Shown here: positions 22,014 through 36,028 of the stretch, piece after piece
How positions within the stretch are numbered: position 1 is the stretch's first letter
How the letters are laid out: each line of letters opens with the position of its first letter
NCBI GenBank assembly: GCA_017541025.1
Contig: JAFXZY010000070.1
Span: forward strand, 1 to 36,627
Source: Bacteroidaceae bacterium
GTDB taxonomy: Bacteria; Bacteroidota; Bacteroidia; Bacteroidales; Bacteroidaceae
DNA length: 36,627 nt
Direction: 5' to 3'
Translations under genes and position numbers: made by a program
Notes under the pieces: model-generated
Databases searched by the model: none
What the model saw: only the letters and a program-made list of their open reading frames with translations
Told to the model about the DNA's origin: nothing

Positions 22014-24134
22014 TCACTTGAAAACTGAAAGTACCGGATGCCCGATCCATGAAAGAGGAGTCGGGAGTGCAAGGATATGAGCCAAAGTAGCAGCCGTGTC
22101 ATATTGCATCATGGGATCTTTTATCACCATACCTTGACGAATGCCCTTACCGCATATTATAAAGGGATGCTCCATCTCCAATAAAGTCTTTCCTCCGTGA
22201 CCTTTGTCTTTGCCACCATGGTCGGCTGTTATAATGATAACGGTGTCATCATAGATGCCTGCCTGTTTCAGCGCCTCAATAAGACGACCTACTTGAACAT
22301 CCAATTCCGAAAGAGTTTGATAGTATGCCGGTGTATCGTGCCCAATGGCATGTCCCGTATGGTCGAGTTGATCCCAGCAGACGGCCAACAGCGTAGGCTT
22401 ACACTGTTTTATAGATTCTTCAGCCATTCGGCATAGCTCTTCGTGGTCTTTCTCCCAGTTTGTGGCAAGGGAATAGTTATCAATGGCCAGTGAATCCACG
22501 ACGTGCTTGATACCGCCCCATTCAGCCAGACAACCTGTAACAATTTCAGGACGTGCCTTTCGCAGCAGTGAGAAAATAGAAGGGAATATGTTGTGTTCAT
22601 TCAGTTCTATGGATGGTATCTCTGGCGTCTGCGAGCCCCACTCGGTATAGCCGTGAAACTCAGGACAGGTACCATTGAACATGGATGCCCAGTTAAGTGC
22701 GGAACTGGAAGGGAGTACCGAGCGTTTCTTAAGAGTATAGCATCCTTGCGACATCAACGAGCGAATATTAGGAATGTTATTAGCTTTATCCAGGCTGTAA
22801 CTTCCCCATCCATCTATGCCAATAACCAGAACATGAGCTGCCAGAGGAGCAGTGCTTAGACTCGGACGCAGTGTGGGATTCTGGTGATTGAAAATTCGGT
22901 CACAGAAATCCATATACCTGTGCCAATCATAAGAAGTAACATCATGCTTTCCTGCACGAATGTGATACGCTACCTGATTTTGAATAGGCTGATGAACGGC
23001 TGGCATGGTGGTGCTCTCAATACCCTTCAGCCCATAGAGGGCATAGACAGGAGAGGTTGCCTGTGCAGCGAGGAACTCCCCGTGAGGGTCGGCCCAGCGA
23101 TCTTCCTCGGCACTTGCAACGTACAGACAACGAGGAGCTATCAGTGCCAATAGTTCGTGCTGGTCAAATGGTAAAGCCTGTTCATCCTCAGCATATTCTG
23201 AGAAAGCGGGACAGAACCAATGAGGGAAAGAGCGGGTGATTCGCCCAACTGTCTCGCCAAATGCACGCTTGGAGAGGGCTGCGCCGCCACAACCTGAGTT
23301 ATTGGATATTACTACCTGAAAACGTTCGTCCTGAGCTCCTGCCCAGATGGCGGCTTTCCCTTGGCGAGAATGACCAATAATAGCCATTTGACTGGCATCG
23401 GCCCATGGTTGGCGCTGTACCCAGTCGGCCATACGGCTACTTCCCCAAGCCCAAGCACCTAATGCCTGCCAACGTGCATCACCATCCTGATTCTCAGGGA
23501 AAAGGGGAATAATGCTCCCAGCTGTGCCATCAGCTCTGTCGGGGAAGATATCCTGATAACACATGGTGACAACGGCATAACCCCTGCGTACTATGTCCTC
23601 CAGTGGCCAACGGAAGAATTGTATGTTGCGTTGGAGAGCCGGACTTTTCTTGTCGGTAATCTTTTCAAAGAAGGGCGAGTAAAGTACCGTCGTGTCAGAG
23701 GTGATACTATGGTTGCCCATGAAATTATACCCGATGAAAACAGGCACACGCCCTTTGTGGTGGTTGGGAATGTAGGCAAGTAAAAGCGCCTTTCGCTCCT
23801 GCCCCTGACCCTTGAAAGTCAACATCACCTGTTGCGAAGTAGCCAATCCTCCCAAAGCCTGCTGATTCTCAAATACCAGTTTGCAGGAAGTCTTTATCTT
23901 GTCTTTTGGCGTGCGGCCATATTCTTGGTCTGCAAAAAGCTGAAGTAGCTCCGGACGTCTTTTTTTCTCCCAGTCTTTAACATTTTTTACCCGTGTCCCG
24001 TCTATGCAAAGCAATGGGTCTGGTAATGTAAAGGAAGGTACCTTCGTTTCGTCATAGTTGGCTTCTTGTGCCATCATCGATGCACAACAAAAGAGCATTA
24101 GCTGTGCTGCCAAAATAAAAGTCAGATTCTTCAT
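22014..24134 (-). CDS. CE15-like glucuronoyl esterase fused to a type I phosphodiesterase/phosphatase
   Basis: 706 residues with a signal peptide ending MMAQ. Residues ~25-420 form an alpha/beta hydrolase of the bacterial CE15 type: nucleophile Ser256 in IIGHSRQGKAAIWAGAQDER, then ISNNSGCGGAALSKR, acidic EEDRWAD (343-349) and His397 in AGKHDVTSYDWH. CE15 enzymes cut glucuronate esters linking xylan to lignin. Residues ~434-706 resemble the type I phosphodiesterase / nucleotide pyrophosphatase family: Asp441 in VIGIDGWG, a Ser nucleophile candidate in PSSSALNW (475-482), CWDQLDHTGHAIGHD, and ADHGGKDKGHGG, so the two-metal ligand set appears present. Such a pairing in one secreted protein is unusual. 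Last gene of the leftward operon, 20 nt after the CotH gene. Confidence 0.87.
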   Translation of the reverse strand: MKNLTFILAAQLMLFCCASMMAQEANYDETKVPSFTLPDPLLCIDGTRVKNVKDWEKKRRPELLQLFADQEYGRTPKDKIKTSCKLVFENQQALGGLATSQQVMLTFKGQGQERKALLLAYIPNHHKGRVPVFIGYNFMGNHSITSDTTVLYSPFFEKITDKKSPALQRNIQFFRWPLEDIVRRGYAVVTMCYQDIFPDRADGTAGSIIPLFPENQDGDARWQALGAWAWGSSRMADWVQRQPWADASQMAIIGHSRQGKAAIWAGAQDERFQVVISNNSGCGGAALSKRAFGETVGRITRSFPHWFCPAFSEYAEDEQALPFDQHELLALIAPRCLYVASAEEDRWADPHGEFLAAQATSPVYALYGLKGIESTTMPAVHQPIQNQVAYHIRAGKHDVTSYDWHRYMDFCDRIFNHQNPTLRPSLSTAPLAAHVLVIGIDGWGSYSLDKANNIPNIRSLMSQGCYTLKKRSVLPSSSALNWASMFNGTCPEFHGYTEWGSQTPEIPSIELNEHNIFPSIFSLLRKARPEIVTGCLAEWGGIKHVVDSLAIDNYSLATNWEKDHEELCRMAEESIKQCKPTLLAVCWDQLDHTGHAIGHDTPAYYQTLSELDVQVGRLIEALKQAGIYDDTVIIITADHGGKDKGHGGKTLLEMEHPFIICGKGIRQGMVIKDPMMQYDTAATLAHILALPTPLSWIGHPVLSVFK

Positions 24135-24154: not shown

Positions 24155-27100
24155 TTATTTTACCAAAACCTTGCGCATGGTTCCATCATTCATGTGGATA
24201 ATGACGATACCCTTTCGTTTATGTGAAGAATGAGGAAGGAAAAGTGAAGAATCGACTTTTCTTCCTGAAAGGTCATAAACACTAATCGAGTTATCAATTA
24301 TCAATTGTCCATTATCAATTGAACTGATGCCGTCCACAATATCCATTGCTTCCTCTACACGGAAGGTTGAGCCGTCGTCGGTTGGACTATTTCCGTCATC
24401 CCAGAACTTTAGTGGACCGCCTCCTCCACCAAACTGGTTAATACAGCAATAGTCGGTTCCCGTTTCCCGTAGCACGAAACCTCCATTGTTGGGCAGCAAG
24501 TCCCACGTATAGTCGCCCTTACGCATCACGGCACTCTCACCGTCCTTGCTCAGTGTCTCGGCAAAACCTGTTGTGTAATTATACACCTTCACATGGTAGG
24601 GATCACCACCGAAGGCCCACAGGTATTCTGGCGTCTGGGTTATATTACCGTCATTTAGCTTTGGATAGTAAGGTTCACTTTCCTCTTTGCCTACATACCA
24701 GCCGCTACGAATGTGCATGTTATACCACACGGCATCTTTCTCTGAGGTGGAGAACTCAAAGGGTCCTGTCCATTCCGCCTCGTAATCCAACGTCAAATCT
24801 TCATGAACGGCAAAGGGGATGTCTTTAGGTTCTATCAGGTGAATGTAGGCGTTCTCCCAATTTTTGGATGGCATGGGCACCATAGAGCCATCTGCCACCT
24901 TTGCTGTCTCTTCGCCAATAACCTGTCCGTTAAACAAGATGCGGTTGGTAACGGCAAAGAAGCTCTCTTCTGCCAGTGCCAAAGCCTCTGTAGGATCAAA
25001 GTCGCCTGCTTCTTCTATCAGCCAACGGTTACCGTCGTCGGGTGTATCCCAACTGTTGATAACAATCTGGCCGTTGTTGTTGAAATAGTATGTGCCGCCG
25101 CTTTCGTTCTTGACAGAAAGCATATAAAGGTATTTCCCATCTGCATTATCAGTACTAAAATGAATGGGAGTTCCCAAAGCATCTACCCACGTTCCATTGT
25201 CTTGATAGTTAAGGAATTCCTCTGTAACAGGGCTGTAAAGGTAGTTTTTACCTTCAATATAGAGGATGGCAAAGAGTTTGTCTTCCTCTGGCGCATCTCT
25301 TCTGGTCTGTCCTGCTGCCAGACCGGTGTGATAATCATCCAGCACCAGTCCACCACGTCGGCACTTGAGGGTGTAGAGCTTATTGTTGGCAAATAGATTT
25401 TCCTCAGGTTCGTCTCCCGGATCCTCTCCCGGATCAATGATATCCGGCATGCGGCCACTGACAAGATCATCGTAGATTGTCTGAGAACGGATAGCTAACC
25501 ACTCAGAGGCCTCCTGTACCTGTGCGGCGTAGTCGGTGTAATCACCCCATACTTTTCGGTTGTCATTTAAAGAGTTCTTGGCAAAGTCGTAGTAGTCTTG
25601 GCAGTATTCTAACAATTCCGTCAGATCATTTTCCATGAACTGCTCCCACAATTCTTTATAGATATCATTTAATGGTTCGTATTTGAAGCGTAGGTCGCGA
25701 ATAAATTCTACCACTTCCATTCCAGGGCAATCTATCCAGTAGTTATTGGTGGCTTCGTTACGGAAGTAGTTTCCATACCGCTCGTAGCCATACGCCCAAT
25801 CAAGATCCCATACGGGACCAAAGACATATTTACTTGTGTCGCTTTCAAACGATTCGCGATAGCAGAAGGTACTTTTGGGATGGTAAAACTCATAGTTCAG
25901 AATTAACTCGTTAACCATCATGAAACGTGCCAACTGCGTAATATCAACGTACTTTGAGATATCACGCTTCCAATAGACTGTACGCATGAATTCGTTGAAG
26001 TTCGAGGACACATCCTCCAGCGTCAGCTTCGTAGTGCCCTCCGAGAATGTTGGCTCCTTAACGTTGATGGGCAGACCGTAAGGTTCCGAACGGAATTTTT
26101 GACCATTTTCTACATCGTAATAGGAATCAAGTTCTAACAAAGCGGCAGCGCTCTCATCGTCCAGATTGACACTGTTGTTGGCGAAACCGACTTTTTCTGT
26201 AAAGTTATAACTTCCACGGTATTCGCCATTAAGATAGATGTCAACAGGTACTATATGGTTGGCTGCAGCTGCTCCCATCAGGTTGGCAGCTTTCATACCT
26301 ATGGCGTTAGACATCATCGAACCGGTCTGGTAATTACTCAACAGAACCCAGTTCTTGCCTCTCTTCATACCCAGAGGTTTTACTGCGTTTGCAAACTTCA
26401 GTCGGTAGGGCTTCTTAGGCCAGCCCCAACTACTGTTGCCACGCCCTTTTATCTGCACTTCAGTTTCGTCCATCGAAGGGAATATGTCGTGGCCATCGAT
26501 GCGGATGGTGGCATCCTTGAAATAATCCTTGCTTGTAATGGGCAGACCGTCGGAAGTGTTGATATAGATGGTGGGAACTTCAGCACGGTCTGTCAGCCAA
26601 TCCACATGAACACGAACAATACGTCCATAAGGCTGCATGGAATAGGTGCCAGTGCCCTTCTCTGAAGAATCAACAGGCAGCAGCATCCTGTAGCCAGGAC
26701 GAGTTATAACGTAATAGATGTCTTTGTCGAAACGCAAGCGCGAGACCTTACTCTCTTGCTGTTCATTTTTTACATATACCTCAACATTCTCGTCCTCGGT
26801 CAGTTTGAACGATGGTGTCAGGCGTTTGCCTATAGCACAGATAGTTGCGAAGACAGTATCAGCAATTATCTCCCCGTCTACATCCGTAAACACCTGGTCG
26901 TTATATTTGTTATTGAACTTGAACGACTCAAAAGTGGGGAAATCCGTTGGTGCCGTTTCGCTTACAGAATCCACATCGGCCAGCGCATAAGTGAATGTCT
27001 GCCCCATGTTGGTCTCAATAACCAACTGCCCGTTTGTCTCGCTAAACTTAGTGACATAGCCCTTTGGGTAAGCTTCCAACCGACCGTCTTTCAGATATAC

Positions 27101-27676
27101 GTGCAGGGCATCAGGGAAAGAAGTGCGTTCTGCAGGATCGGGGTCTATCTGCGGATCAGAACCAGGATCATCCCCTTTTTTCTCAAAGAAAAAGTGTTCA
27201 TTGTTACTATTTCCCCATCCTCCGTGATACGTACCTAATAGCCCTTGGTCATATCGGAGATTCCAGTAATAAGAATCGGCTACTACGCTGTTGATGCTGA
27301 ACGAGCCGTCACCATTCTCGAGTACATACCACAAATGGCTTTGGTCATCAGGCGCAGAATCCGCCAGAGTCATATACTTATAATTAGCATCCACTCGGTC
27401 TGTTGTATATATGAGATATTGACCGCTTGTTTCGTTTCGGAAAGTATAGCCGGATTTGGTATTAGTAACTACCCAAAAGGCATCAGCCGTTAAAGCACTG
27501 CCATCTTTCATGTAGCAGATATATGGATCTACGTTGTGATATGCGCCCAATGCTACGTACCCATCACCTTGCAGACAAGAGATGGAATAGACTCCGTTCT
27601 CTAATGCGGCAAACGTTCTCAGTGGACATAAGCAGAAATATAAGATAATCAGGTAAAATAGAGACTTTTTCATCAT
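24155..27676 (-). CDS. Large secreted CotH-family protein with lectin-like regions and T9SS-like tail
   Basis: 1173 residues with a signal peptide (MMKKSLFYLIILYFCLCPL). A ricin-like/lectin-like region (about 20-170) is followed by a linker with Asp/Pro repeats and a CotH kinase-like domain (about 365-740): VQIKGRGNSSWGWPKKPYRL, WVLLSNYQTGSMMSNAIGMK, SYNFTEKVG and FGPVWDLDWAYG. Some CotH proteins are atypical protein kinases; activity here is not proven. A second lectin-like region (about 758-890) and further beta-rich sequence follow. The C-terminal ~50 residues (SVYDLSGRKV, GIVIIHMNDGTMRKVLVK) look like a T9SS sorting tail. The linker SIDNGQLIIDNS is encoded by the AATTGATAATTGA mini-repeat. 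It lies 38 nt after the symporter gene. Confidence 0.85.
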   Translation of the reverse strand: MMKKSLFYLIILYFCLCPLRTFAALENGVYSISCLQGDGYVALGAYHNVDPYICYMKDGSALTADAFWVVTNTKSGYTFRNETSGQYLIYTTDRVDANYKYMTLADSAPDDQSHLWYVLENGDGSFSINSVVADSYYWNLRYDQGLLGTYHGGWGNSNNEHFFFEKKGDDPGSDPQIDPDPAERTSFPDALHVYLKDGRLEAYPKGYVTKFSETNGQLVIETNMGQTFTYALADVDSVSETAPTDFPTFESFKFNNKYNDQVFTDVDGEIIADTVFATICAIGKRLTPSFKLTEDENVEVYVKNEQQESKVSRLRFDKDIYYVITRPGYRMLLPVDSSEKGTGTYSMQPYGRIVRVHVDWLTDRAEVPTIYINTSDGLPITSKDYFKDATIRIDGHDIFPSMDETEVQIKGRGNSSWGWPKKPYRLKFANAVKPLGMKRGKNWVLLSNYQTGSMMSNAIGMKAANLMGAAAANHIVPVDIYLNGEYRGSYNFTEKVGFANNSVNLDDESAAALLELDSYYDVENGQKFRSEPYGLPINVKEPTFSEGTTKLTLEDVSSNFNEFMRTVYWKRDISKYVDITQLARFMMVNELILNYEFYHPKSTFCYRESFESDTSKYVFGPVWDLDWAYGYERYGNYFRNEATNNYWIDCPGMEVVEFIRDLRFKYEPLNDIYKELWEQFMENDLTELLEYCQDYYDFAKNSLNDNRKVWGDYTDYAAQVQEASEWLAIRSQTIYDDLVSGRMPDIIDPGEDPGDEPEENLFANNKLYTLKCRRGGLVLDDYHTGLAAGQTRRDAPEEDKLFAILYIEGKNYLYSPVTEEFLNYQDNGTWVDALGTPIHFSTDNADGKYLYMLSVKNESGGTYYFNNNGQIVINSWDTPDDGNRWLIEEAGDFDPTEALALAEESFFAVTNRILFNGQVIGEETAKVADGSMVPMPSKNWENAYIHLIEPKDIPFAVHEDLTLDYEAEWTGPFEFSTSEKDAVWYNMHIRSGWYVGKEESEPYYPKLNDGNITQTPEYLWAFGGDPYHVKVYNYTTGFAETLSKDGESAVMRKGDYTWDLLPNNGGFVLRETGTDYCCINQFGGGGGPLKFWDDGNSPTDDGSTFRVEEAMDIVDGISSIDNGQLIIDNSISVYDLSGRKVDSSLFLPHSSHKRKGIVIIHMNDGTMRKVLVK
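24291..24322 (-). repeat. AATTGATAATTGA mini-repeat inside the CotH-family gene
   Basis: On the minus strand this contains ACAATTGATAATTGATAA, identical over 18 nt to 1266-1283. In the CotH gene it is read in frame as the linker SIDNGQLIIDNS just before the C-terminal tail. Confidence 0.75.
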
Positions 27677-29507: not shown

Positions 29508-30083
29508 ATGCATAGGAATTCTCTTTGTATACTTTTCCTTCTATTCCTGCTCATAGGTAGCCCTTTAACCTATGCACAACGTATTGCTATCAACAACAAT
29601 GTACTATTTGATGCGGCGGGAGCGTTGTCTATGGGTATTGAAATCCCCTGTTCAAAGAAGATATCCATTGAAACTTATGCCAGTGTCAGGCCATGGAAAC
29701 GTGCAGAAGATAATGTCCATAAGCACTGGTTATTGCAGACTCAATGCCGAATTTGGCCCTGCCAAGTCATGAACGGCTTTTTCTATGGTCCTTACGCACA
29801 TACTGGTCAGTTCAATATAGGAAACCATGAGTTGTTTTTTGGCCTTCTTAATGGACTGAAGCCAAATCGCTACGAAGGATGGCTGATAGGTGGCGGCATG
29901 GGCGTGGGTTACGAATACGTATTGGCTAAGCATTGGAGCCTCTGCGCTGAGGTGGGCGTGGGCTATACATATATTAAATATAAGAAATATGACTGTGAGG
30001 TATGCGGTAGAATGAAAGAAGATAAAGCGTATCATTACTTTGGTGTCTCCAGATTGGCCCTTAGTCTCATATATGTGTTTTAA
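29508..30083 (+). CDS. DUF3575 family outer-membrane protein (fimbrial locus)
   Basis: 191 residues with a signal peptide (about 1-24, ending TYAQ). The sequence pattern RIAINNNVLFDAAGALSMGI, the central YGPYAHTGQFNIGN and GWLIGGGMGVGYEYVLAKHW, and the end FGVSRLALSLIYVF fit DUF3575, a small beta-barrel-like family frequently found first in Mfa/Fim-type fimbrial operons of Bacteroidales. Its precise role is not known; alternating hydrophobic strands and the terminal aromatic residue suggest the outer membrane. It is the first gene of a five-gene rightward operon, 20 nt before the next. Confidence 0.85.
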   Translation: MHRNSLCILFLLFLLIGSPLTYAQRIAINNNVLFDAAGALSMGIEIPCSKKISIETYASVRPWKRAEDNVHKHWLLQTQCRIWPCQVMNGFFYGPYAHTGQFNIGNHELFFGLLNGLKPNRYEGWLIGGGMGVGYEYVLAKHWSLCAEVGVGYTYIKYKKYDCEVCGRMKEDKAYHYFGVSRLALSLIYVF

Positions 30084-30103: not shown

Positions 30104-31618
30104 ATGATTATTTTTGGCAAACATATCATTAAGAACTTGCATAAAATTACCATTGGTGGCAATGGGGTGTTTCTTCTGCTGCTGAGCATTTTTCTGCCTG
30201 TAACCGCATCCGTGGGCTTGGCAAAGAAGCAGGATACGAAAAAGCCTGTTCGCGAATACGTGATGACGATTAACCGTTCTGCTTTGGCAGTAGTGGACAG
30301 CAATGTGGTTGTCTCCCTCCAGATGACAGCTATTCAGGATGTTCCACCGACACAGGTTGTCGTCTTGGCACCGGTACTGATGGATACACTAACACAACGT
30401 CAGGTGGAGTTCCCCTTAGTGTTCATTAACAGCCGTACCCAGCAAATCTATTTTGAACGTAGTCTAAAGAAAGAATACCCCGATGCTATTGCCGTACAAA
30501 AAAAGAGAGGCAAGAATCTGAACATAGACTATCTCCGTTCTACCAGATATGAACCATGGATGGATAAGGCAGTGCTAAAACTACGCAAGCAGAGTTGCGC
30601 CTGCAGCAATATGAAGGACAGGGGCGAGGAGATAATAGCTTCCTTCGGTAAAGAGGAAGAGGTAGTGCCTGAGATAAAGCTCTTCCCTGTATATCTGATA
30701 CCACCTGCTGACAATGAAGTGAAGGTGCGTGAGGAAAAGGGATCGGCATACCTGTGTTTCGAGGTTAACAAATGGGATATAAAACCAGATTATATGAGCA
30801 ATCCTACAGAGCTTATGAAGATACACAACTCTGTGAATTTGGTTAAGAATGACTCTGACGTCACTATCCGTAAAATGACAATTGAGGGGTATGCCTCGCC
30901 TGAAGGACCGGAATATAAGAACCTCATTCTAAGCGAGAATAGAACAGCAGCTCTGAAGAGTTATCTGCAGGCAACACAGATTGCAAAGAACATCAATGTG
31001 GAGGCCGTCGGAAAAGGTGAAAACTGGGAAGGCTTTGTGAACTATCTCAAGAATCATGCAGAAGTTCCCCAGCGCACTAAGTTGCTTAGCATTGCAAATG
31101 GATACATAACAAACGATGAGAAGGAGCAGCAGATGCGACGGGAGACTCCCGAGGGCTTCTCTTATGTACTGAAAGAAGTTTTTCCGGCCTTGCGCTGTAC
31201 GGATTATACGGTTATATACACCGTCAGACCTTTTACCCTTGAGGAGTCGGAAAGGGTATTTGAAACACGTCCTGTCAACCTTAACTTAAGCGAAATTTAC
31301 CGACTGGCAGACAAATATGCCCACAACGAGGAGAAGTATTACTCAATTATTCGCAAGGCATATATGCTATATCCCAATGACTCTTATATCAACCTTACTA
31401 TGGCTTATCTGGCTATCAGGAAAGGTGAAGCAGATGAGGCTTCCGAATTTCTGAGCAAGGTGGGCGACTGTCCTGAGAAGATGTTGAACGAAGGTATTGT
31501 GGCCTATCTGAAAAACGATTTGGAAAATGCAGTCAGACTTGTTGAAGAAGCCGCTAAGAAGGGTGTTAAAGAAGCTGCTGCACAGCTTGAGGAATTTAGC
31601 AAAATTAAAAAACCATAA
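30104..31618 (+). CDS. DUF3868 / OmpA-like fimbrial-locus protein
   Basis: 504 residues with an N-terminal membrane segment (VFLLLLSIFLPVTASVGLA, about 22-40). The N-terminal half (INRSALAVVDSNVVVSLQM and the Pro-rich VYLIPPADNEVKV) fits the DUF3868 group encoded in Bacteroidales fimbrial loci. An OmpA-like domain (about 230-330) has MTIEGYASPEGPEYKNLILS followed by ENRTAALKSYL, a peptidoglycan-binding fold. The C-terminal ~100 residues are helical, TPR-like (ALRKAYMLYP-type spacing: YSIIRKAYMLYPNDSYINLT). It may anchor the fimbrial assembly between outer membrane and cell wall. This role is inference from domain content. Confidence 0.82.
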   Translation: MIIFGKHIIKNLHKITIGGNGVFLLLLSIFLPVTASVGLAKKQDTKKPVREYVMTINRSALAVVDSNVVVSLQMTAIQDVPPTQVVVLAPVLMDTLTQRQVEFPLVFINSRTQQIYFERSLKKEYPDAIAVQKKRGKNLNIDYLRSTRYEPWMDKAVLKLRKQSCACSNMKDRGEEIIASFGKEEEVVPEIKLFPVYLIPPADNEVKVREEKGSAYLCFEVNKWDIKPDYMSNPTELMKIHNSVNLVKNDSDVTIRKMTIEGYASPEGPEYKNLILSENRTAALKSYLQATQIAKNINVEAVGKGENWEGFVNYLKNHAEVPQRTKLLSIANGYITNDEKEQQMRRETPEGFSYVLKEVFPALRCTDYTVIYTVRPFTLEESERVFETRPVNLNLSEIYRLADKYAHNEEKYYSIIRKAYMLYPNDSYINLTMAYLAIRKGEADEASEFLSKVGDCPEKMLNEGIVAYLKNDLENAVRLVEEAAKKGVKEAAAQLEEFSKIKKP

Positions 31619-31632
31619 AACATATATTTACT

Positions 31633-33129
31633 ATGTACCATTCTAAAAAAAACATCGTAACGCTTTTTTTATTCAGTGTTGTTCTTCTTGGTTGCAGCCA
31701 GTACGAAGATGTTGACGACACCAAAGAGGTAAACAAACATGATAATACCGGTGTGGTATTCCGCCTTCGCACAAATGTTTCGGCTGATCCTTTCACACGT
31801 AGTGCAGAGGACAGTTATTTACATGAGCAGGGTAAACCGGAAGAGTATAATGTGAACAACGCACGGGTTTATCTCTTTGACGCTCCCTCCAAACTTTTTG
31901 TCAAAAGTTTCTTGCTTACAAATCTGACGCGTTCTGGTACCGACGCAAGTGGTAACATCATTTATGAGACAGAGCATGTGTACGTACCACAGGGTACCTA
32001 TGATATTTTCGTAACGGCCAATACAGACAGGTTGATCAGCAAGAATACAGAGTCAGAATTCCTGGCCGACATAGACAGTATATCGTATGTAAAAGCATAT
32101 ATTGATGATATTTCCAAAGGCATTGTTATGACAAACCGTGCATCAGAGAATACCGGTATTGTTATAGCAAATAACCCAGAGTACGAGGACAATGTTGTTA
32201 ATATAACCCTGGAGCGTGTCTTGGCCCGTATAGATATTGCCAAAGGCAGCGAATCGTTCCAGTTGACTGATGATTATGGTAAGATGTATGCCACAATAAC
32301 ACTTGACAAATTCTATATTGTGAATATGCCCAAGTACTATTATTCGTATCGGCATACAGCTGTTCTCAATTCTATGATAGAACCTGACTGGAACCTCAAC
32401 GAGCATTTCGGTAATGTAAAGGATGTTAATGGGTATGTAGTAGATCCTTATTTCTTTGAAAAAACAATTGATGCATCTGCATTCAATAACTCAAAAAAAT
32501 ACTATGAGCATTTCTTTGGTGACTTCAGCAATCCAAATGCCGTAGCGTGGACTTTTCTCAAACCCGTAGGAGAAACCCCAGATTATAATTCGGTGTATTG
32601 CCTGGAAAACTGTACGCTGGCCCCTGCCCAGAAAAACGGTTATAGTACAGGTGTTATCTTTAGAGGCAAGATGGAGCCTTATAACAACGTGTTTCGTTTA
32701 GCTGACGATGGTAATTTGGTGTTGGTTACTGATAAGACTAAATATCCTGAGGTTTTATATTACTACAAATACAAATTCTATGACTCTCCTGAGGCTTTGG
32801 CATCAGCTATTGGCGTAACTTCACTTAGCGACGTCAGTTTAGATATGTATAAGGTACGGAAATATGAGAAGACCGACGAGGGCTATCTTTCCTATTACAC
32901 ATACTGGATCCGCCATTTGGACAACTACAAGCCAACCACCATGGGTGTGATGGAATTTGGCATTGTACGCAACAACCTTTACCGCTTGCTCATTACCAAT
33001 GTATCAGGCTTGGGATATCCAGACGTGCCCGTCAATACGGATACTCCAGACGAAGGAGAGACTTATTTGTCGGTAGTTCTCAATGTTAAACCTTGGATTG
33101 TCAGAGACCTTACAAATATTGTGCTTTGA
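31633..33129 (+). CDS. Mfa1-like fimbrillin lipoprotein (fimbrial subunit)
   Basis: 498 residues; lipoprotein signal with Cys21 in VVLLGCS. A donor-strand-like segment (VVFRLRTNVS) is followed by an Arg site (FTRSAED, R56-S57), where Arg-specific proteolysis activates fimbrillins of Porphyromonas. Then come two beta-sandwich domains with typical fimbrillin features: NNARVYLFDA, VYVPQGTYDIFVTANTD, NITLERVLARIDIA and the end GIVRNNLYRLLITNVSGLG, YLSVVLNVKPW. It is probably the main or an accessory shaft subunit of an Mfa-type pilus. It shares many stretches with the C-terminal part of the protein at 34094. The stop overlaps the next start. Confidence 0.88.
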   Translation: MYHSKKNIVTLFLFSVVLLGCSQYEDVDDTKEVNKHDNTGVVFRLRTNVSADPFTRSAEDSYLHEQGKPEEYNVNNARVYLFDAPSKLFVKSFLLTNLTRSGTDASGNIIYETEHVYVPQGTYDIFVTANTDRLISKNTESEFLADIDSISYVKAYIDDISKGIVMTNRASENTGIVIANNPEYEDNVVNITLERVLARIDIAKGSESFQLTDDYGKMYATITLDKFYIVNMPKYYYSYRHTAVLNSMIEPDWNLNEHFGNVKDVNGYVVDPYFFEKTIDASAFNNSKKYYEHFFGDFSNPNAVAWTFLKPVGETPDYNSVYCLENCTLAPAQKNGYSTGVIFRGKMEPYNNVFRLADDGNLVLVTDKTKYPEVLYYYKYKFYDSPEALASAIGVTSLSDVSLDMYKVRKYEKTDEGYLSYYTYWIRHLDNYKPTTMGVMEFGIVRNNLYRLLITNVSGLGYPDVPVNTDTPDEGETYLSVVLNVKPWIVRDLTNIVL

Positions 33130-34091
33130 AAAATCTATTTTCCATAATATGCCTTCTGTCACTGATGTCCTGCTCATGGGTGAAGGATGACATTGATGAC
33201 TGTCCCTTCGGGTTCTGGTTAAAGTTGCACTATACCTACAATATTTTAGATGTGGAGGCTGCACCCAAATACCTGATGGATGCATACGTCTATGTGTATG
33301 ATGTAGATGGAGACTATATCAAACGTATCTATGTAACCCGTGACGACTTGAAGGCCAATGACTATCGTGTCAGGATTGAGGGACTTCCTGAAGGTGACTA
33401 TCAGTTTGTAGTATGGAGCGGTATAGGCAACAGCCAGTATGCTGTATCCGGCGATACAAAAACAATTGACGATTTCCGTCTTTCGCTTGTTGGGGCCGGA
33501 GGTAACTATGAAGGCGAATTACCCCCGCTTTATCATGGTTATCTGCAAACTGTCCATTATGACGACTCGTATGCCCAGCATGATGTTAATTTGATGAAGA
33601 ATACCAATCATCTGGCATGCCTCGTTGTAACAGTATCTGATCAGACAGTAATGAATCCTGACGACTATTCCATGACAATTACTGCTGATAACGGGACTAT
33701 GGATGCTTATAACAAAATAGTCCCAGATGCCAATACCATCTTTGAGCCCTTTCTCAAGGACAGTGTAATCATAAACGACTCTGACTATGGTGAACTTCAT
33801 GGATTACAATTCAATATCATGACTCTTCGACTGATGGCCAGTAGCAACAACCGCATTGTCCTTACAAATACCAAGACGGAGCAGACGGTATTCAATATAT
33901 CTTTTGCTGAGTACATAGGTATGATAGGGGCATTCTACACTAATCTCGGTAGGCAGATTCCTGTTCAGGAATATCTTGACAGACAGGACTTCTACACCAT
34001 TGTGTTTTATCTTTCAGCAGATCTTGACCAACTTATTCAGTTGCAAGTAAACAGTTGGCGATTGAGGGCCAATAATCACTTAAAACTATAG
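33126..34091 (+). CDS. Mfa2/FimB-like fimbrial anchor lipoprotein
   Basis: I choose TTG 33126 as the start: it overlaps the upstream TGA stop (TTGA) and gives a clean lipoprotein signal (MKNLFSIICLLSLMSC, with TTG read as Met; Cys16). An in-frame ATG at 33093 lies inside the upstream gene and adds 11 residues of poor signal sequence. The 321-residue protein has the Mfa2/FimB family pattern: DDIDDCPFGFWLKLHYTYN, AYVYVYDVDGDYI and LPEGDYQFVVWSGIGNS. The family anchors and length-limits the pilus at the outer membrane. The order Mfa1-like then Mfa2-like is typical. The gene is followed 2 nt later by the thioredoxin-fimbrillin gene. Confidence 0.86.
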   Translation: MKNLFSIICLLSLMSCSWVKDDIDDCPFGFWLKLHYTYNILDVEAAPKYLMDAYVYVYDVDGDYIKRIYVTRDDLKANDYRVRIEGLPEGDYQFVVWSGIGNSQYAVSGDTKTIDDFRLSLVGAGGNYEGELPPLYHGYLQTVHYDDSYAQHDVNLMKNTNHLACLVVTVSDQTVMNPDDYSMTITADNGTMDAYNKIVPDANTIFEPFLKDSVIINDSDYGELHGLQFNIMTLRLMASSNNRIVLTNTKTEQTVFNISFAEYIGMIGAFYTNLGRQIPVQEYLDRQDFYTIVFYLSADLDQLIQLQVNSWRLRANNHLKL

Positions 34092-34093
34092 GC

Positions 34094-36028
34094 GTGTTGT
34101 TTCGATTGAAAAGATATCGTACAGGAGTTTTTCTTCAATTTAGGGGAAGATTCAGGGAAAAGAGACAGGTCGTATTGTCCTTCCTTCTCCTTTTCGTTCT
34201 TTTGGTATCATGTGTCCAGGACCATGACGAATCTGACAACTCAGCTATGAAAGTGAATGTCGGTGATTACGTTCCAGCTTTTATTCTCTCCGGTTCAGAC
34301 GGAAATGAAGTCTCGTCCGCATCGTTGGAAGGGCAAATTTATATTCTGAACTTCTTTGATACGGGATGTCTGGACTGTAGGGAAGAGTTACAGGTAATGC
34401 AGAAGGTTTTCGATAAATTTCATGGTAATGTGCCGATACTTAATGTACCACGCAGCCAGACTGATGAAGAGGTGAAAGCATATTGGAACAAGGCTGGACT
34501 GAATATGCCTTTTTACATGCCTAACGACAAGAATCTCTATTATAGGTTTGCAACAAAGATTATTCCGCGAACCTATATCGTGGATGGCAACGGAAGGGTG
34601 AGGGCTGCCTTTTCCGATAAACCAATAGCTGACAGCGCTACATTGGAAACTCTCTTGCAGCAATTGGTTGGAGAAGGCAGTAGTGGAGAAGGGTATGTCA
34701 ATTTGTCCATGAGACTTAGAGTACCCGCCAGAGGCCGCAGCATTGATGATTATTATTTCCACAATGAGTATACCATCAGCAACCTTGAAGTCTGGTTTTT
34801 CAATGCCGAAACCAAGAAAATCTTTACCAAGGCAGAGATTAAAGGACTTTCAATGGAGAATGCTTATTATGATACACGGTATGATATCAGCTACCTATTT
34901 AAGGACATGAGGCTTCTCGTGGGTATCTACGATATTTTCTTTCTGGCTAACTATTATAATGATCCCATTGAGGCAGAGGACGAGATGGAATTTCTTAATC
35001 ACGTGGATAGTATCACGTACAGCGATGGTGTTGAGGCTAATTTGCCTGAAACAGGTCCTGTTATGACAAACCGTGCAACTTCATTGATGGGAATAAATCT
35101 TTTGCCGTGGTCAAACAAAAGCTATATGCTGAATGTGGAACTAGAACGTGTGATGGCAAAGCTTCAAATAGGCGTGGCTCAAAACATTTTCCAACTGAAA
35201 CATAATCAGCGGAAATATGCAGATATCAACATAACCAATTACAAGTTGGTCAATCTGAACAGACGATATTACCTCTTTCAGCATAGGGACAGTCTGCCGA
35301 CTTTCACTCCTCAGCCTGAATTCATTTTGCCCTACCATTTTAGCGATTATTCTGATGTGGGTGAACAATATGTGGTTGATCCACTCTTCTACAGGAAATT
35401 AGCCAACAAAGAAGATGCCAAAGCTGTTGGCAGTTACTACCAATCATGGTTCGGGGATTTTACTACCGAGAATTTCGCCTCTATGCCCTCGGCGGACAAT
35501 TTTGGCTATGCCTACATTTTGGAAAACACGGTTTTCAAGACAAGCCAGAAAAATGGCTACTCACCCGGTGTAGTATTCAAAGCTGCTGTGAACCCGGTAT
35601 TCGTATATCTTTATGATTTCAGTCAAAAAGCATTGAAAGAGGAATACCGACCAGAATACTGGCCAAGGGTCATTTACCTGTACAACTACAACTTCTATGG
35701 TTCGGTACAGGCCGTCAATTTGGCCAGTGGACTAACTCTTGACGAATTGGTAACTTATACTGATGAACAACTGAAAACGTACGGAATTAAGCAGTGTAGG
35801 TTCAATATGGGAGTTTATGAGACCTTCTACACCTACTGGATTCACCATCGTTGTAATCAGACCGATTTCATGGGAGCCATGGAATATGGCATCGTCAGGA
35901 ATAATTTCTACAGGATGGTGGTCACAGGTGTCAACGGCATAGGAAACAGTGTCATTGAACCGGATATTATGCGGAACAATTATCCTAACTCCTATGTTGA
36001 TGTGGAGGTGAATGTCAATCAGAACTGA
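34094..36028 (+). CDS. Thioredoxin (TlpA-like)-fimbrillin fusion lipoprotein
   Basis: 644 residues from a GTG start 2 nt after the previous stop. Lipoprotein signal with a long basic n-region; lipobox LVSC, Cys40. Residues ~51-193 are a TlpA/thioredoxin-like domain: PAFILSGSDGNEVSSASLEG, active site GCLDCREEL (C92 and C95), cis-Pro158 in IIPRTYIVDGNGRV. Residues ~200-644 are a fimbrillin homologous to the protein at 31633 (shared MTNRA, FGDF, YWI.H and GIVRNN-YR.-.T.V-G.G). A donor-strand-like YVNLSMRLRV precedes an Arg site GRSIDDYY (R215-S216). The thioredoxin domain therefore precedes the region normally removed on maturation. It may be a tip or accessory subunit with redox activity; that is inference. 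Confidence 0.87.
   Translation: MLFRLKRYRTGVFLQFRGRFREKRQVVLSFLLLFVLLVSCVQDHDESDNSAMKVNVGDYVPAFILSGSDGNEVSSASLEGQIYILNFFDTGCLDCREELQVMQKVFDKFHGNVPILNVPRSQTDEEVKAYWNKAGLNMPFYMPNDKNLYYRFATKIIPRTYIVDGNGRVRAAFSDKPIADSATLETLLQQLVGEGSSGEGYVNLSMRLRVPARGRSIDDYYFHNEYTISNLEVWFFNAETKKIFTKAEIKGLSMENAYYDTRYDISYLFKDMRLLVGIYDIFFLANYYNDPIEAEDEMEFLNHVDSITYSDGVEANLPETGPVMTNRATSLMGINLLPWSNKSYMLNVELERVMAKLQIGVAQNIFQLKHNQRKYADINITNYKLVNLNRRYYLFQHRDSLPTFTPQPEFILPYHFSDYSDVGEQYVVDPLFYRKLANKEDAKAVGSYYQSWFGDFTTENFASMPSADNFGYAYILENTVFKTSQKNGYSPGVVFKAAVNPVFVYLYDFSQKALKEEYRPEYWPRVIYLYNYNFYGSVQAVNLASGLTLDELVTYTDEQLKTYGIKQCRFNMGVYETFYTYWIHHRCNQTDFMGAMEYGIVRNNFYRMVVTGVNGIGNSVIEPDIMRNNYPNSYVDVEVNVNQN

Follow-up and report, generated by a model that had tools for sequence, protein, structure and literature searches.

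A thioredoxin domain joined to a fimbrillin

The window analysed here is a stretch of 36,627 nucleotides (contig JAFXZY010000070.1, assembly GCA_017541025.1) from a Bacteroidaceae bacterium. On its plus strand, from 34,094 to 36,028, an open reading frame of 644 amino acids encodes a lipoprotein in which a thioredoxin domain of the TlpA type precedes a fimbrillin. A sequence-only reading of the window had proposed this arrangement from C92, C95 and the cis-proline P158, and it is borne out by profile searches of both halves and by conservation in 22 of 22 fusion genes. The first in-frame start codon is GTG; judging by our own alignment, the start common to the relatives is probably the TTG at 34,106 (residue 5). 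Along the chain the order is lipid, thioredoxin, first strand, loop and fimbrillin, beginning with the presumed lipid-carrying Cys40 of a lipobox recognised in the alignments (34,211 to 34,213), where the sequence runs on as CVQDHDES.

The thioredoxin domain, similar to TlpA and ResA, takes up approximately residues 56 to 192 (34,259 to 34,669). Pfam AhpC-TSA matches residues 56 to 171 with 51.5 bits against a cut-off of 26 (E 1.2e-13), the Thioredoxin_8 and Redoxin models likewise score above their Pfam cut-offs, and the thioredoxin-type matches span residues 56 to 187. Sequence matches to solved ResA-type structures, such as 4nmu (E 4e-13), support a thioredoxin fold for this half. The NCBIfam cut-offs for ResA, StoA, TlpA and DsbE were not reached, the best score being 63.5 bits against 170 required for ResA. 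The active site C92-L-D-C95 lies at 34,367 to 34,378 and the cis-proline position 158, which aligns with a proline of 4nmu, at 34,565 to 34,567. Both cysteines and the proline are present in all 22 aligned fusions, with FFDTxCxDC as the motif and isoleucine (21 of 22) or valine (1 of 22) preceding the proline; all three residues were also invariant in the first seven fusions aligned. The half has CxxC, cis-proline and a ResA-like sequence in common with the TlpA/ResA-like oxidoreductases of the AhpC-TSA/Redoxin superfamily, but it differs from them in being joined to a pilin and in its site, which is of the CxPC type in ResA 4nmu. Its enzyme activity is presumed, as would be any direction of electron flow.

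Selection on the two halves was compared by the ratio of nonsynonymous to synonymous substitution rates (dN/dS). Four sufficiently diverged pairs gave 0.10 to 0.20 for the TlpA half and 0.10 to 0.26 for the fimbrillin half, rough values since dS is 0.8, 0.9 and 1.5 in three of them; six pairs were run, of which L061/L062 and L058/L059 were too similar for a ratio in the TlpA half. Both halves of the fusion are under purifying selection. The linker between them varies in length, being shortest in L049, L051, L052 and L072 and longest in L060.

The fimbrillin half comprises residues 201 to 644 (34,694 to 36,025) and lacks a shaft-type C-terminal tail. It opens with a presumed first beta strand filling the fimbrillin groove (residues 201 to 210; 34,694 to 34,723), whose alternating pattern is also found in the shaft paralogues and whose role is assigned by analogy (PMC5789003). 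The presumed beta1-beta2 loop follows (residues 211 to 222; 34,724 to 34,759), read from the alignment by eye and containing R213 and R215. The NCBIfam Mfa1 model NF038041 matches residues 197 to 642 at profile positions 33 to 484 of 495 (E 3.3e-33); since its 115.7 bits stay under the cut-off of 130, we call this half a relative of Mfa1 and not a member of the subfamily. Pfam Fimbrillin_C matches residues 577 to 643 with 46 bits, above its cut-off of 27. P_gingi_FimA, the N-terminal fimbrillin model of Pfam, scored 17.2 bits at residues 223 to 340 of the window fusion, under the cut-off of 21.4; this cut-off is reached by the TlpA-free orthologue L071 and by the fimbrillin of genome G340, where the two parts are separate genes.

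The fusion is the last of five genes on the same strand, and the operon they form is a type V (Mfa-type) pilus operon. The first gene encodes a DUF3575 protein (29,508 to 30,083; Pfam PF12099, E 9.3e-55). The second encodes a DUF3868/OmpA-like protein (30,104 to 31,618), assigned by a Pfam OmpA score of 28.5 bits (cut-off 27.2), a DUF3868 score of 17.7 that stays under the cut-off of 27, and orthologues in the same slot. It is followed by a shaft-type fimbrillin of the Mfa1 family (31,633 to 33,129; NF038041, 202.3 bits, above 130) with the arginine site TRSAEDS and a C-terminal tryptophan tail, and by an Mfa2-type anchor lipoprotein (33,093 to 34,091; Pfam PF08842, E 3.8e-51, 174.7 bits), whose start codon is uncertain and whose gene overlaps that of Mfa1. 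With start codons called mechanically, the spacing along the operon is 20 bases, 14 bases, an overlap and 2 bases. The sequence-only reading had seen a paralogous subunit three genes earlier in the same operon; the paralogue is there, 34% identical, but lies two genes upstream with Mfa2 between. This Mfa1 and its orthologues have a cysteine in the motif LENC and most have a further one in GYxCY, which the window Mfa1 lacks. In another locus (L142:3423-7435), two tandem DUF3575 and DUF3868 pairs stand ahead of a single Mfa1 and Mfa2.

Distribution and alternative gene states

Fusion genes were found in 22 genomes, that of the window and 21 further loci, and Mfa2 lies directly upstream in all 22. 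The loci come from a scan of named genomes that gave 38 loci, 21 with an intact fusion, six of these being genomes already in the genus set; by title, the majority are bins from metagenomes or isolates described as uncultured. L030 to L036 were removed as duplicates of L050, L052, L062, L065, L064, L059 and L074, and the near-identical pairs L058/L059 and L061/L062 were retained in the counts of 22. The same architecture in the same slot of 21 further genomes excludes chance or mis-assembly. An artefact of assembly or gene calling that joined two neighbours, for which one could cite the separate genes of G340, is refuted by a single open frame in 22 genomes, and we give it practically no chance.

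Within the genus, 7 of 139 genomes carry the fusion (the window and six others), each with Mfa2 immediately upstream. A family sample gave intact fusions in 3 of 399 genomes (G000, G110 and G275) and a broken one in G431 (E<=1e-40), and in an order sample of 393 genomes from 207 genera only the window's own genome had one (E<=1e-30); the first look of both scans scored three candidates per listed genome, so that remote fusions could escape. One of two further genera had the fusion in 1 of 17 genomes (G275), the other in none of 45 in intact form and in one broken. By these counts the fusion is rare and local to this bacterial group. Host hints for 21 fusion genomes name a ruminant host or stomach in nine (goat, sheep, red deer and yak), nine carry RUG codes, which we take to stand for rumen uncultured genomes, and three are uninformative. 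The carriers are rumen bacteria related to Prevotella.

The two halves occur in four gene states: fused, as separate genes in one operon, as a fimbrillin without TlpA and as TlpA alone. The separate state is that of G340 (L124:6430-9420), whose operon runs DUF3575, DUF3868, Mfa1, Mfa2, TlpA (172 amino acids) and fimbrillin (494 amino acids). As called, the TlpA gene shares 4 bases with that of Mfa2 and 14 with that of the fimbrillin; read by eye, each of the two proteins has a lipobox of its own. A fimbrillin without TlpA occupies the slot of the fusion in L066, L067, L071, L073 and L155. For L067, Mfa1 was the one upstream gene that the script annotated; a further TlpA-free row, L068, is truncated, and its available DNA contains no other part of the operon. 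Judged by eye, the five orthologues retain the signal peptide, the lipobox and the first strand, so that TlpA takes the place of the N-terminal extension of a pilin. At E<=1e-20 the genomes of L066, L067, L068 and L073 gave no TlpA match, and that of L071 gave one with 34% identity. TlpA alone is found in L074 to L080; Mfa1 and the fimbrillin half gave no match in any of these seven genomes (E<=1e-15). Among the sequences found, the TlpA half comes closest to standalone proteins from its own genus and family, with at most 63% identity. The sequence-only reading had linked fimbriae to thiol chemistry; as seen here this link is a genetic one, by one gene or one operon, and lineages without TlpA keep the operon.

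A tree of the TlpA domain with 58 rows places every one of the 22 fused rows, along with 11 standalone ones, on the same side of one branch (100/99). There, fused and standalone rows interleave, with eight state changes, at least three of them forced by the starred branches; a single clade of fused TlpA was neither accepted nor rejected by the approximately unbiased (AU) test (p = 0.053). The G340 TlpA stands outside this group in the free tree, and its placement with the group was not rejected by the AU test (p 0.58). In the fimbrillin tree (37 rows), the fused, TlpA-free and G340 sequences form one clade separate from Mfa1 (100/100), in which the G340 fimbrillin is outermost (100/99 for the rest), a placement made unsure by its long branch. 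TlpA-free fimbrillins are nested among fused ones, L067 with L049 (100/90) and L073 inside a group at 100/95. At least three state changes are forced here as well, in a tree whose bootstrap has not settled and which does not fix their direction. We prefer a history in which TlpA was at first a gene of the operon, fusion followed, and either half was then lost repeatedly.

One change of state is recent. L070 and L075 represent the same locus, with 94.7% identity over 7.2 kb on one side and 93.5% over 2.9 kb on the other. L070 (6974-8651) holds a TlpA-fimbrillin fusion whose fimbrillin half is broken by a frame shift, either real or a sequencing fault. In L075 (6968-7522) TlpA stops at the linker and is followed by unrelated sequence with McrBC-type genes; TlpA can thus persist without the fimbrillin. 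Identity already drops in the final third of the TlpA domain; the replaced segment may therefore start inside it. At neither locus is the rest of the fimbrial operon shown.

Several patterns in the placement of TlpA were considered and set aside; L084 was excluded from the TlpA sets. Fused and standalone TlpA might exclude each other, as the 22 fusion genomes of this comparison (21 intact, 1 broken) all have their own fusion as the single TlpA match at E<=1e-20. Little can be read from the lack of genomes with both, since a standalone match was found in only 11 of 139 genus genomes (E<=1e-20), and many are incomplete bins. Three genomes of genus g13 (G214, G371 and G411) speak against a general rule that standalone TlpA avoids such pili, as they have a standalone TlpA and, elsewhere, a more distant Mfa1 operon. 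Standalone TlpA genes of the same family do lie approximately 1.5 kb or less from DUF3575-type fimbrial operons (L042:4333-6872, L083:6108-7604, L125:5100-7115 and L126:6564-8869), possibly by chance. Other g13 genomes have TlpA in a common neighbourhood without fimbriae, and we therefore draw nothing from the proximity of TlpA to these operons.

Outside the operon, the minus strand of the window carries a DUF4421 protein interrupted by the contig end (36,041 to 36,604), a relative of which is found on the same side of the operon in L053. Also on the minus strand are a single frame of 706 amino acids with a glucuronyl-esterase-like followed by a phosphodiesterase/sulfatase-like domain (22,014 to 24,134) and a CotH-kinase-like protein of 1173 amino acids with a ricin-B-type lectin match close to its start (24,155 to 27,676).

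C-terminal tail, lipid anchor and cleavage loop

All 26 Mfa1 rows have a tryptophan within the last 25 residues, whereas none of 28 fusion-type fimbrillins does, and by medians the latter end approximately 13 residues before Mfa1. For this count L067 was excluded and L061 and L083 were kept among the 26; tail length was unreadable in two of the 28 rows and odd (18) in one. What had been described as a full fimbrillin is hence of the Mfa1 type but ends early, without the terminal tryptophan and donor tail. These features suggest that the fusion fimbrillin is a tip-type subunit. In P. gingivalis, polymerisation requires the tail of the shaft subunit, and Mfa4, which is a protein of the tip, likewise ends in a short C-terminus (PMC5789003, PMC5954841) that has no tryptophan of the shaft-tail kind (PMC5789003). 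On this scheme a subunit missing the C-terminal tail can only be the first one, i.e., at the tip.

The lipobox pattern with its cysteine is present in 22 of 22 fusions (C40 in the window), as counted by an automatic pattern that failed on most Mfa1 rows and on some TlpA-free and standalone rows and was used for the fusions only. At least two acidic residues stand at positions +2 to +6 after the lipid cysteine in 21 of 22, and similar acidic surface export signals have been described for Bacteroidota (PMC5080379, PMC6222051). By this analogy the fusion lipoprotein is probably located at the cell surface. Because the lipid lies on the thioredoxin side, cleavage of the loop would set the fimbrillin free and keep the enzyme at the membrane; in an uncut protein both parts would stay there. 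This order does not support the earlier proposals: cleavage would not release the thioredoxin domain, and what was proposed as an uncleaved redox-active cap or tip would remain at the membrane.

The reading we favour, though tentatively, is that of a surface lipoprotein precursor in two parts, whose fimbrillin goes to the pilus tip after a cut and whose thioredoxin remains on the outer membrane. The fimbrillin half would be the minor tip-type subunit of the operon, accepting a strand from the next subunit and donating none, and a TlpA-type thioredoxin would have replaced the short N-terminal extension of ordinary pilins and TlpA-free orthologues. The precursor would be lipidated and then flipped to the cell surface, where a cut in the beta1-beta2 loop would send the fimbrillin to the tip. 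The thioredoxin left behind would serve as a thiol-disulfide enzyme at the cell surface, as would a TlpA encoded by a separate gene. In G340 the parts are separate polypeptides, which is the state that cleavage of the fusion would reproduce. Surface export, tip position and cleavage are what we infer. With more reserve, we consider it possible that the fusion is a polyprotein pilin precursor, the leader of a tip pilin turned enzyme, from which one cut would yield a tip subunit and an equal number of lipid-anchored surface thioredoxins.

In favour of this reading, a review states that pilins are cut by a surface clostripain and that the groove takes the C-terminus of the next pilin (PMC12632263). 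Several points weigh against it. The donor strand itself is considered unsettled (PMC5789003, PMC5954841). The Mfa1 loop has R[S/G]..(D/E)DS in 24 of 24 rows, a count made without L061 and L083 (truncated or distant). In an alignment read by eye, the fusion loop has an arginine in 10 of 22, only a lysine in 4 of 22 and neither in 8 of 22; L057, with an odd loop that lacks the YFxNEY motif, was positioned by the alignment. The difference in loop arginine between fusions and Mfa1 gives a Fisher p of 1.7e-5 with kinship ignored. An arginine site at R215-S216 is present in the window where it had been proposed, but it is not general, and the eight fusions lacking both residues weaken the case for cleavage by an Arg- or Lys-specific protease. 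Moreover, the separate-gene state is found in a single genome, G340, which is 59% complete, and many of the genomes are incomplete bins.

Other observations bear on where a cut might fall. In 14 of 22 fusions the loop does hold an arginine or lysine. Among the TlpA-free relatives, L066 and L067 (two of six) also lack both, so their absence from the loop is not caused by the fusion; an arginine is present in L068, L071, L073 and L155. When the arginine sites of Mfa4 are removed, its cut shifts upstream to another arginine or lysine (PMC4789730). With this precedent, cutting elsewhere is possible, since a basic residue stands near the end of the first strand in 21 of 22 fusions (by eye, all but L072). 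The window's own genome has one C25 protease match, in a frame of 1259 amino acids that we take as possibly PorU, and one C11 (clostripain-family) match. The presence of these proteases says nothing on this fusion as a substrate.

Competing readings and known pilus systems

A first alternative is that the loop is not cut and the protein stays whole. The first strand would then remain in the groove and the entire lipoprotein would sit at or near the pilus base like Mfa2, its non-polymerising fimbrillin tethering the thioredoxin. The unconserved cut site, with neither arginine nor lysine in the loop of eight of the 22 fusions, and the absent donor tail agree with this, and the P. gingivalis Mfa2 anchor, which likewise has no cut site or extended tail, stays uncut in the membrane (PMC5789003). 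Permanent linkage is not essential, however, given the separate parts in G340, and a fimbrillin locked in its closed form would serve no evident purpose, whereas purifying selection acts on both halves. We regard an uncleaved protein as somewhat unlikely. It is less probable still that TlpA is an independently useful surface lipoprotein captured by the operon and merely co-expressed, the fusion having no role in the fibre. TlpA alone in all seven tested genomes that lack fimbrillin-half and Mfa1 matches, the three or more switches that the fimbrillin tree requires between fusion and TlpA-free fimbrillin, the interleaving of fused and standalone rows in the TlpA tree and the locus shared by the broken fusion of L070 and the standalone TlpA of L075 all speak for such a captured gene. 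The G340 gene between Mfa2 and fimbrillin, together with the fusion in 22 genomes, argues instead for a benefit of pairing. Capture of this kind is partly compatible with the precursor reading that we favour.

A thioredoxin at the far tip of the pilus, acting on thiols of the host, the feed or neighbours, has in its favour the tip-type fimbrillin and the extra domains of other tip subunits, namely the von Willebrand domain of Mfa5 (PMC7835359) and C-terminal ligand domains (PMC12632263). It conflicts with a lipid anchor placed ahead of TlpA, as outward transport of the thioredoxin would require a second cut, placed in the stretch of 15 residues that separates C40 from the domain and ends at approximately residue 55; besides, the additional domains known from tip subunits usually lie at the C-terminus, and Mfa5 uses the type IX system for its export (PMC5954841, PMC7835359). 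From the order of the sequence elements and the lipid anchoring, a redox-active tip appears the least likely of the three outcomes whether or not the loop is cut, and we consider it very improbable. Still less credence is given to TlpA as a folding helper that makes or rearranges disulfides of pilus subunits. Cysteines recur in Mfa1 and Mfa2 rows, and an oxidoreductase serves pilus assembly in Actinomyces (PMC5478893); but four operons that lack TlpA (L066, L067, L071 and L073) have the Mfa1 cysteines of LENC and GYxCY as well, which leaves a dependence of pilin cysteines on TlpA unsupported.

The fusion shares with the P. gingivalis precursors of Mfa1, Mfa3 and Mfa4 its lipoprotein nature, the first strand and loop (by alignment), the fimbrillin profiles and an operon with an Mfa2-type anchor, and with Mfa4 the short end. 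It differs from the Mfa1 family in having a complete thioredoxin-type domain for a short N-terminal extension, in its unconserved arginine site and in its NF038041 score. Tip pilins with extra domains, such as those of Mfa5 and the C-terminal ligand-binding ones, similarly carry a functional domain on a minor pilus component; here, in contrast, the domain is enzyme-like, with the lipid before it and the first strand after it, and belongs to the part that cleavage would remove. An iron-regulated locus of B. thetaiotaomicron lists a fimbrillin-family protein together with a thiol oxidoreductase (PMC10434189), a likeness by listing and not by sequence. Titles and abstract openings in the literature searched describe no such fusion; Xu 2016, the founding structural survey of these pili, may mention one.

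With these four natural gene states the fate of type V pilin leaders becomes testable: in a cut fusion the enzyme would show where the leader goes, and an uncut one would mean that such pilins need no cutting. The fusion also directs attention to a family of thiol-disulfide enzymes that these bacteria probably expose on their surface.

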